Virus record (IMG/VR): IMGVR_UViG_3300030450_002652
Span: 1 to 32,209 of that record
Source of the DNA: a virus
Direction: 5' to 3' (one strand)
Length of the DNA: 32,209 nucleotides
The position numbers were made by a program, and so were the translations under genes. Shown one piece after another: positions 20,068-23,093 of this stretch (its first letter is position 1; every line of letters starts with the position of its first letter). Below the pieces are notes generated by a model, which had not been told where the DNA came from, ran no database searches, and saw only the letters and a program-made list of their open reading frames with translations.

Positions 20068-20337
20068 TTAAAATGGAATGTCATCAGATTGTGATGATCC
20101 ACTTTGGTTATAGTGTTCAAGTGCTAATTGATTCACTTTTTGTTTTAGTGTTTTATCGGCAAAGACAGTATCGTTGTATTCGTCATCTTTGTTTTTCTGG
20201 CTTGGGAATCCTGCAAACATTCCGTTTGCTCCCTCTATAATTTTAAAGCCTTTTATAGTAAAGCCGTCTTCTGTTTCTAAATCAAAGAAAGCCTTAACTT
20301 TTCCCCAATCGCCTTTGTTCATTCTACTTATTTTCAT
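20068..20337 (-). CDS. SpoVG-like protein with SSB-type acidic tip
   Basis: Residues 12-66 (GKVKAFFDLETEDGFTIKGFKIIEGANGMFAGFPSQKNKDDEY) follow the SpoVG fold signature, where KIIEG.NG.F..MPS is diagnostic. The protein ends SQSDDIPF, the conserved acidic-hydrophobic tip of bacterial single-stranded DNA-binding proteins that recruits SSB partners. SpoVG proteins bind DNA and RNA. A combined reading is a phage ssDNA-binding or helper protein. Shine-Dalgarno AGGAG inside the preceding gene; overlap 14 bases. Confidence 0.75.
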   Translation of the reverse strand: MKISRMNKGDWGKVKAFFDLETEDGFTIKGFKIIEGANGMFAGFPSQKNKDDEYNDTVFADKTLKQKVNQLALEHYNQSGSSQSDDIPF

Positions 20338-22166: not shown

Positions 22167-22385
22167 TTAAATTTCGTAATATGTGATTCGTTTTTTAGTG
22201 CAGTTAGGGTAGAGTTTTTCTACCGATGTGTTTAAAATTCTTGATAATTGTTTTAATCTTTCTTGGTTTGGCTTTCTAGTGCCTTTAATATAACCACTTA
22301 GTATGCTTGGGTGTAAGTCCATTTTAGAGCAAATATAAGTATTTTTTAAACCTTTGCTCTTTATAACTTCTTTTAATCTATTCAT
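22167..22385 (-). CDS. Cro/CI-type helix-turn-helix regulator
   Basis: 72 residues. MNRLKEVIKSKGLKNTYICS then MDLHPSILSGYIKGTRKPNQERLKQLSRILNTSVEKLYP is the full XRE helix-turn-helix with the typical 'SGYIKGTRKPN' recognition and 'LYP' end. A small repressor of the phage, lacking any catalytic domain. Leftward promoter TTGTAT-18-TATTAT (22420-22449) lies upstream, and a TTTACA half-site (22415-22420) touches it, which matches operators in the 26 kb intergenic region. Confidence 0.85.
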   Translation of the reverse strand: MNRLKEVIKSKGLKNTYICSKMDLHPSILSGYIKGTRKPNQERLKQLSRILNTSVEKLYPNCTKKRITYYEI

Positions 22386-22477: not shown

Positions 22478-22505
22478 TTTATAATTCATTTTATTTGTTT
22501 ATAAT
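22478..22505 (+). promoter_or_regulatory. Rightward promoter with perfect TATAAT
   Basis: TATAAT (22500-22505) with TTTATA 16 bases upstream (22478-22483). The start site expected about 7 bases after the -10 box falls at 22511-22513, the first bases of the pseudoknot. No rightward ORF follows. Confidence 0.5.
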
Positions 22506-22510
22506 AATCC

Positions 22511-22710
22511 TTGTTATTTGGTTTGGCTTATTACTTTTGGCGAATAACAATTATAACGAACTACCAAAAGGGATCACAAAGTTCAAGGTGAGGACGAATT
22601 ATAATACACCTGTGATGAAAAAAATATTATAAGCTATCTTCCACAATGTGAGGGATATAATAGCAGTCATTCTCAGATTAAAAGTCTGGGAATAAGGACT
22701 GCTATACCAA
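22511..22710 (+). ncRNA. Candidate structured RNA with H-type pseudoknot
   Basis: Three elements on the + strand. (1) Pseudoknot: 22511-22520 pairs with 22541-22550 (10 bp, one G-U), and CTTTTGG 22534-22540 pairs with CCAAAAG 22564-22570 (7 bp). Order a-b-a'-b', no base between b and a'; loops 13 and 13. (2) ATCACA 22573-22578 with TGTGAT 22611-22616, and GGTG 22587-22590 with CACC 22607-22610, an 8-base bulge between. (3) 22660-22668 with 22697-22705 and 22669-22677 with 22685-22693, 18 bp with one G-U, loop TTAAAAG, a single AAG bulge. G-U pairs favour the + strand. A T-run terminator was not seen, so the 3' end is uncertain. No protein can be read. Confidence 0.55.
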
Positions 22711-22736: not shown

Positions 22737-22883
22737 CTATTTATTAACTATAACTTTATTATAAGATATAGTAACTTTATCAGTTTTATTATAATCTACA
22801 TCTAAAGCATCACAAACATCTTTCCAAACTCTTGAATATTCAAAATCTTCTGAATATAATTCTAATTGTTTATCTTTATTCAT
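22737..22883 (-). CDS. Internal start product, 48 aa, paralogue of the 21193 gene
   Basis: ATG at 22881-22883 with AGGAG 8 bases upstream, in frame with the 118-residue frame. Module shape D-F/Y...WK..C....V....DK.TI.Y matches the 48-residue gene at 21193-21339, of the same length. Likely translated independently as well as inside the fusion. Confidence 0.5.
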   Translation of the reverse strand: MNKDKQLELYSEDFEYSRVWKDVCDALDVDYNKTDKVTISYNKVIVNK

Positions 22884-23093
22884 TTTATTACTCCTATATT
22901 TAAATTCAAAATCATCTATATCTTCAATACAAGAACATATTTTTTCTTTATGTTCATCATCATACTCATCACAACAAACTATATTTTTATATCTTTCTTT
23001 ATTATTTTCTTCTAACCATTTTTCTGGATTATCTGTTGTTCCACAATGATCAACAGACCCAGTTATATGTCTATAATAAATATCAAACTTCAT
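22737..23093 (-). CDS. Two-module hypothetical protein, likely fusion of two small genes
   Basis: 118 residues. Residues 1-66 (MKFDIYYRHITGSVDHCGTT onward) and 71-118 (MNKDKQLELYSEDFEYSRVW onward) are separate in style. At residues 66-71 the codons read AAA TAT AGG AGT AAT AAA ATG, which is exactly the TAGGAGTAATAAAATG start region of the neighbouring genes, so the second module has its own Shine-Dalgarno and ATG at 22883. The second module is like the 21193 gene. It seems a stop between two genes was lost, giving a read-through plus an internal product. Confidence 0.6.
   Translation of the reverse strand: MKFDIYYRHITGSVDHCGTTDNPEKWLEENNKERYKNIVCCDEYDDEHKEKICSCIEDIDDFEFKYRSNKMNKDKQLELYSEDFEYSRVWKDVCDALDVDYNKTDKVTISYNKVIVNK

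Follow-up and report, generated by a model that had tools for sequence, protein, structure and literature searches.

The window analysed here is the whole of IMG/VR virus record IMGVR_UViG_3300030450_002652 (positions 1 to 32,209; 32,209 bases). The locus of interest is flanked by an HTH_3 gene (22167-22385, minus strand) and a leftward gene (22737-23093, minus strand). The neighbourhood is a block of leftward genes, in which a predicted RNA is, by its position, a rightward transcript. In the window's lineage this RNA heads the recombination/replication gene block and has no sense gene 3′ of it; there and in most relatives, the next gene lies on the opposite strand, tail to tail. The 118-aa product of the neighbouring gene has no Pfam or PHROG match. 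A SpoVG-like protein (PF04026, E = 5e-14) is encoded at 20068-20337 on the minus strand, in the phage early block. The features of the locus are as follows.

22478..22505, plus strand: predicted promoter, with -35 TTTATA at 22478-22483, a 16-nt spacer and -10 TATAAT at 22500-22505, 5 nt before P1
22511-22520 with 22541-22550, plus strand: helix P1 (TTGTTATTTG with CGAATAACAA), with two-sided changes in both alignments and a coordinated 1-bp deletion in the relative L002
22521..22533, plus strand: loop L1, with a GGUUUGG motif (from 22520) kept in most members, including the GC-rich L121 and L122
22534-22540 with 22564-22570, plus strand: helix P2 (CTTTTGG with CCAAAAG in the DNA), crossing P1 and P3
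22558-22562 with 22580-22584, plus strand: helix P3 (GAACU with AGUUC), crossing P2 and P4
22573-22578 with 22611-22616, plus strand: helix P4, crossed by P3 and P6
22587-22590 with 22607-22610, plus strand: helix P5 (GGUG with CACC), stacked inside P4, with 100% of cells paired and two-sided changes at two pairs in alignment A3
22599-22606 with 22625-22632, plus strand: helix P6, loop strand UUAUAAUA with UAUUAUAA, crossing P4 and P5
22633..22637, plus strand: X1 (GCUAU), first X copy, pairing with x′ better than permuted sets do
22641..22653, plus strand: P7, a small hairpin (CCACAAUGUGAGG) just before and into R1, seen in the MFE fold and kept in class A/B
22651..22661, plus strand: R1 (AGGGAUAUAAU), first direct repeat, matching R2 within the RNA
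22660-22668 with 22697-22705 and 22669-22677 with 22685-22693, plus strand: hairpin P8, with two-sided changes in both halves
22660-22664, plus strand: x′ (AUAGC), within the 5′ strand of P8, able to pair with X1 or X2
22701..22705, plus strand: X2 (GCUAU), second X copy, in the 3′ strand of P8
22716..22726, plus strand: R2 (AGGGAUAUAAU), second direct repeat and end of the conserved region

The initial annotation described a TATAAT box at 22500-22505 and a pseudoknot beginning at 22511, and these coordinates hold on recheck. So do the details of its two stems, here P1 (10 bp, one of them G-U) and P2 (7 bp), with loops of 13 and 13 bases and no base between the stems. The bulged stem at 22573-22616 and the 18-bp hairpin at 22660-22705 (9 + 9 bp, with an AAG bulge) are likewise present. 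When the 351-nt intergenic region was dinucleotide-shuffled 3000 times, two shuffles contained an H-type pseudoknot of 10 bp and 7 bp; in the 32-kb window, with both strands scanned, one of such size occurs only once. The RNA at 22511-22710 folds with -48 kcal/mol (z = -3.5 against its own shuffles). The first crossing, P1 with P2, is thus real, but the RNA is not the simple H-type pseudoknot it was taken for; it is predicted to be a chain of crossing helices with a 3′ repeat module. The crossings of P3 with P2 and P4 and of P6 with P4 and P5, the X-R direct repeat and the wide family all go beyond what had been noted.

Along the window sequence the strands of the core follow in the order P1a, P2a, P1b, P3a, P2b, P4a, P3b, P5a, P6a, P5b, P4b, P6b. 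From P1 to P4 each helix opens before the previous one closes, and the crossings are P1xP2, P2xP3, P3xP4, P4xP6 and P5xP6; by our calculation the genus of this crossing graph is 3. Each new strand abuts the closing one, with a gap of 0 nt between P2a and P1b, 0-1 nt between P3a and P2b and 0-2 nt between P4a and P3b, each in 19 of 20 RNAs, a count made without L108, L124, L133 and L135, in which the automatic helix calls are partly wrong (P4/P6 or P2). A further pairing in the MFE fold, 22525-22531 with 22629-22635, was rejected as it is not kept in L002.

The helices are kept while their sequences change. Compensatory changes are already visible in the first relative, L002 (84% DNA identity), in which P1 loses one base pair on both strands, GAACT/AGTTC of P3 becomes GAAGCT/AGCTTC, and P4 becomes GTTTACA/TGTAAAC. 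P2 is invariant in class C, changes from CUUUUGG/CCAAAAG to CUCUUUG/CAAAGAG in class B (four cells with two-sided change, at two pairs) and reads CUUCUAG/CUAGAAG in L054/L059. The 5′ strand of P3 has approximately 20 different versions among 25 RNAs, CCCGCT/AGCGGG in L121 among them (by eye); this tally is not independent evidence, because the helices were picked by complementarity. Further versions of P4 include ATCACA/TGTGAT, TGAAC/GTTCA and TGTGAC/GTCACA.

The independent covariation evidence comes from columns aligned by sequence alone (MAFFT; alignments A2 and A3). In A2, 86.6% of cells are paired and there are 46 two-sided changes (shuffled mean 16.7); in A3, 90.0% are paired and there are 69 (shuffled mean 24.1), and in neither case do any of 500 shuffles reach the observed number. 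The covariation score is 0.334 in A2 (0.145 in shuffles) and 0.310 in A3 (0.168). When the structure is slid along the alignment, only 7-27 (A2) or 5-14 (A3) two-sided changes are found, a comparison that favours the unslid version, since each alignment's structure string came from a single one of its members. Further pair types in A3 are below the shuffles (26 against 36.5). P6 is 100% paired in A3, with two-sided changes at three pairs, and 88.5% paired in A2, with such changes at five of six pairs. With 65-71% of its cells paired, P4 is the weakest helix in the raw alignments, due to misalignment of its stretch by MAFFT, and misalignment between subclasses lowers the scores of both P3 and P4. 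Overall the covariation is strong, in favour of helices that cross one after another: P1xP2, P2xP3, P3xP4, and P4 and P5 with P6. In the homologous loci stem bases change and pairing is kept, the point on which the initial annotation had proposed that its reading be judged.

Homologues were gathered from loci fetched via the terminase and from pattern scans of IMG/VR. The RNA is present in approximately 43 IMG/VR contigs of uncultured phages, counted by hand from several scans and including some near duplicates, and ranges from about 220 to 310 nt. Most carriers belong to the window's terminase lineage (TerL identity 62-97%); the GC-rich L121 and L122 have no TerL of the window type, and the RNA is thus common to two or more phage lineages. 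A search of whole contigs found exactly one copy in 29 of 37, and of the 18 long contigs retrieved solely through TerL, 15 carry it. Three contigs negative with the covariance model still have the RNA, by pattern (L054, L065) or descriptor (G006). In the TerL relatives G002, G003 and G007 (L008, L027, L081) it was found by neither model nor descriptor; these contigs may be incomplete, free of the RNA, or carry a diverged form. Pattern matches L140 and L141 from the genome collection are due to chance, as the other helices are missing, and matches L107, L123 and L129 from the viral scan were set aside by eye.

Trained on 13 distant class C sequences, with the window RNA left out, a covariance model recovers the window RNA (57.5 bits, E = 8.6e-10) and the GC-rich L121 (E = 3.1e-5). 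This recovery of the window and other classes by a class C-only model is the best test of the family, the existence of which is nearly certain from sequence comparison. No near DNA relatives were found among cultured phages, in which TerL is at most approximately 33% identical.

Compensatory changes, together with promoter-like sequence before P1, bear out the earlier proposal of a structured phage RNA on the plus strand that begins at the pseudoknot. The predicted sigma-70-like promoter of the window has the top score among 106 positions tested in its sequence. Across the family, the promoter-like sequence directly ahead of P1 ranks first of 106 positions in 14 of 24 RNAs and within the top three in 20, ranks that are indicative only, because the scoring weights were set by the analyst. 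The pattern in relatives is TTGnnn-N18-TATATT-N6-8-P1, for example TTGACA-N18-TATATT in L076 and L114, compared to TTTATA-N16-TATAAT in the window; spacing from promoter to P1 is 3-9 nt. No terminator was identified for the RNA. G-U pairs exceed A-C pairs on the plus strand clearly in A3 (40 against 18) and slightly in A2 (27 against 22); this excess and the base-pair covariation argue for an RNA rather than a DNA element.

Downstream of the core, the 3′ module has the order X1-R1-x′-hairpin-X2-R2, a direct repeat of X and R around a hairpin. Such direct repeats around the last hairpin are present in nearly all members, in L124, L133 and L122 by shorter matches (by eye). R1 and R2 are alike within each RNA and diverged between RNAs, with an identity within the same RNA of 0.72 (0.43 when permuted; none of 5000 permutations reach it). 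No further exact copies of R were found in the window or tested contigs. The pairing of x′ with X2 is reached by none of 5000 permutations and that of X1 with x′ by two, compared to 4618 and 696 of 5000 for two control windows; the X1-x′ test treats the RNAs as unrelated, and that pairing is short, often 5 bp. The X segment reads GCTAT in the window, TATGC in class C, TATCTA in L135, TATCCAA in G005, GTGCTT in L117 and TTGGTCGCC in G021. The automatically reported common segment is not X in every RNA (AAATA for the window and L002, whose X pairing shows up in the R1-R2 and x′-X2 analysis instead), therefore the case for X1 is based on the window test and inspection.

Similarity among relatives fades shortly after R2, close to the stop codon of the leftward gene. 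In class A/B (for example L063, L026 and L011), unrelated leftward genes beyond R2 share near-identical end residues (VNN*, VND*, VKN*), so that the RNA border looks as if it were a recombination junction. In L021 (7588-7808, minus strand) the core resembles L004/L011 and the 3′ module resembles L002, which gives it a recombinant look (by eye).

The structure, promoter-like start, conservation and repeats are established by comparison of sequences. As a whole they are best explained by a phage RNA that acts in trans and combines a rigid, knotted core with a 3′ module that switches, an account to which we give about an even chance. In it the RNA (approximately 220 nt in the window, longer in relatives) would be read rightward from its own promoter. 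The core of crossing helices would serve as a rigid scaffold, and the RNA would act in trans, either free or in complex with a protein of phage or host. During transcription x′ would pair with X1 first, and the longer pairing with X2 (P8) would then take x′ over. One partner may dock at R1 or R2 interchangeably, and this would account for the joint change of the two copies. The docking and switching steps are put forward more tentatively than the account as a whole. The likely setting is early infection, given the place of the RNA at the head of the recombination/replication block in the window's lineage. Other roles for R were considered and rejected: an internal complement in the core, as a switch partner, has no consistent position; R is not repeated elsewhere, as a genome-wide operator would be; and as a repressor site it is not supported, since the HTH protein is 100% identical in the window and L002 (surrounding DNA approximately 87% identical), yet R is altered in both copies. 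Short frames within the RNA are not conserved (by eye), and an encoded peptide was likewise rejected.

A self-processing RNA is an unlikely alternative, in which R1 and R2 would be the sites where the knotted core cuts, or cuts and rejoins, the 3′ module of its own RNA. Here x′ would be an internal guide that pairs with X1 and then X2, so that a single active site receives the same R sequence each time, with the intervening hairpin released or circularised. The guide-like x′ does pair with two like strands at nearly equal distance from R, R1 and R2 are kept the same even though the search for an internal complement of R gave no consistent one, and a compact core with several pseudoknots is characteristic of ribozymes. 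Against this, no catalytic motif was recognized, Rfam ribozymes give no match, and there are other reasons why two repeats may remain similar. That the RNA is a phage ribozyme of a new catalytic class, with a crossing-helix chain, one internal guide and two like 3′ sites that are processed or joined, is rather less probable again.

It is improbable that the locus is a DNA replication element, with R1 and R2 as iteron-like binding sites and a rightward transcript that opens or primes an origin. Its place beside recombination/replication genes, direct repeats and single copy per genome would fit, but the covariation and G-U excess indicate RNA, exact R copies are limited to these two in the tested contigs, and the setting differs in L121/L122. 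There the RNA lies within a same-strand gene cluster, between genes, with an HNH gene next on the same strand and no evident promoter before it. In L160 and L161 (from GC-rich phages G021 and G022) a 202-aa gene ends a few bases before the RNA and an HNH gene (PF01844) lies 3′ of it on the same strand, so that this RNA may be cut from a longer transcript. The window's own HNH gene is also present in contigs lacking the RNA and missing from some carriers, and an RNA-guided HNH partner was therefore rejected. Integrase arm sites were also rejected, since in 23 contigs no integrase passed the cut-off.

The proposal of the initial annotation that the RNA is antisense to leftward transcripts, next to the repressor, holds by position only: in the window it diverges from the HTH gene and runs head-on into the leftward gene at 22737-23093. 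As an explanation it is weak and has little probability, because the leftward genes on its flanks vary from carrier to carrier while the RNA is kept, the repressor-type HTH gene was not found in seven of 15 carriers searched, and the L121/L122 cluster is on the same strand; nor would antisense pairing need conserved crossing helices. A leader or riboswitch for a downstream gene, for which the same-strand HNH gene after the RNA in L121/L122 could speak, is very improbable and already disfavoured in the window's lineage, given the tail-to-tail gene that follows and the lack of any Rfam riboswitch match.

The Rfam check proposed for the locus was run and matched no family: Rfam 15 gave no match at gathering score in the window or 11 diverse relatives, and permissive scans gave nothing of weight (in one of them only FTX_1, at E = 3). 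This agrees with the earlier remark that no SAM-II or preQ1 core motif is seen. Like these riboswitches it has a 5′ H-type pseudoknot with abutting stems; unlike them it has several more crossing helices, no core motif and, in the window, no regulated same-strand gene downstream. A hairpin between direct repeats recalls the template-jumping DRT ncRNAs, which is a lead only: a reverse transcriptase template was rejected, as the PF00078 domain is absent from 23 carrier contigs (controls positive). Type III toxin-antitoxin RNAs differ in their tandem array of pseudoknot repeats, whereas the window has one such pseudoknot, and X-R is two copies around a hairpin. A compact crossing-helix core of genus 2 or more is shared with HDV-like and small pseudoknotted ribozymes, and two side-by-side coaxial stacks are conceivable in the core, as for HDV (PMC3390330); the HDV fold is a nested double pseudoknot rather than a chain. 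Complex pseudoknots, with a genus of at least 2, have been observed only seldom (PMC3390330). Since one connected knot as intricate as this is rare among known RNAs, its three-dimensional structure would be instructive whatever the role of the RNA.

No known RNA family fits. The open-licence literature searched holds no earlier description, one elsewhere being possible, and on this and the Rfam result the class is new; its mechanism may prove to be of a known kind. RNAs so elaborate and conserved usually do what a protein or simple RNA does not, and presence in most long contigs of one uncultured lineage and in an unrelated GC-rich one suggests that this RNA matters to the phage. The X-R module yields direct testable predictions. 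GOLLD and ROOL are phage- or prophage-encoded, highly structured pseudoknotted ncRNAs without known function, approximately 650-850 nt long, often near tRNA genes, that form RNA-only cages (PMC12286853). The window RNA family is smaller, ARAGORN found no tRNA genes in the window, and the GOLLD and ROOL models match neither the window nor the 11 relatives; as phage-encoded, ornate and pseudoknotted RNAs, they are nonetheless the nearest in kind to it.
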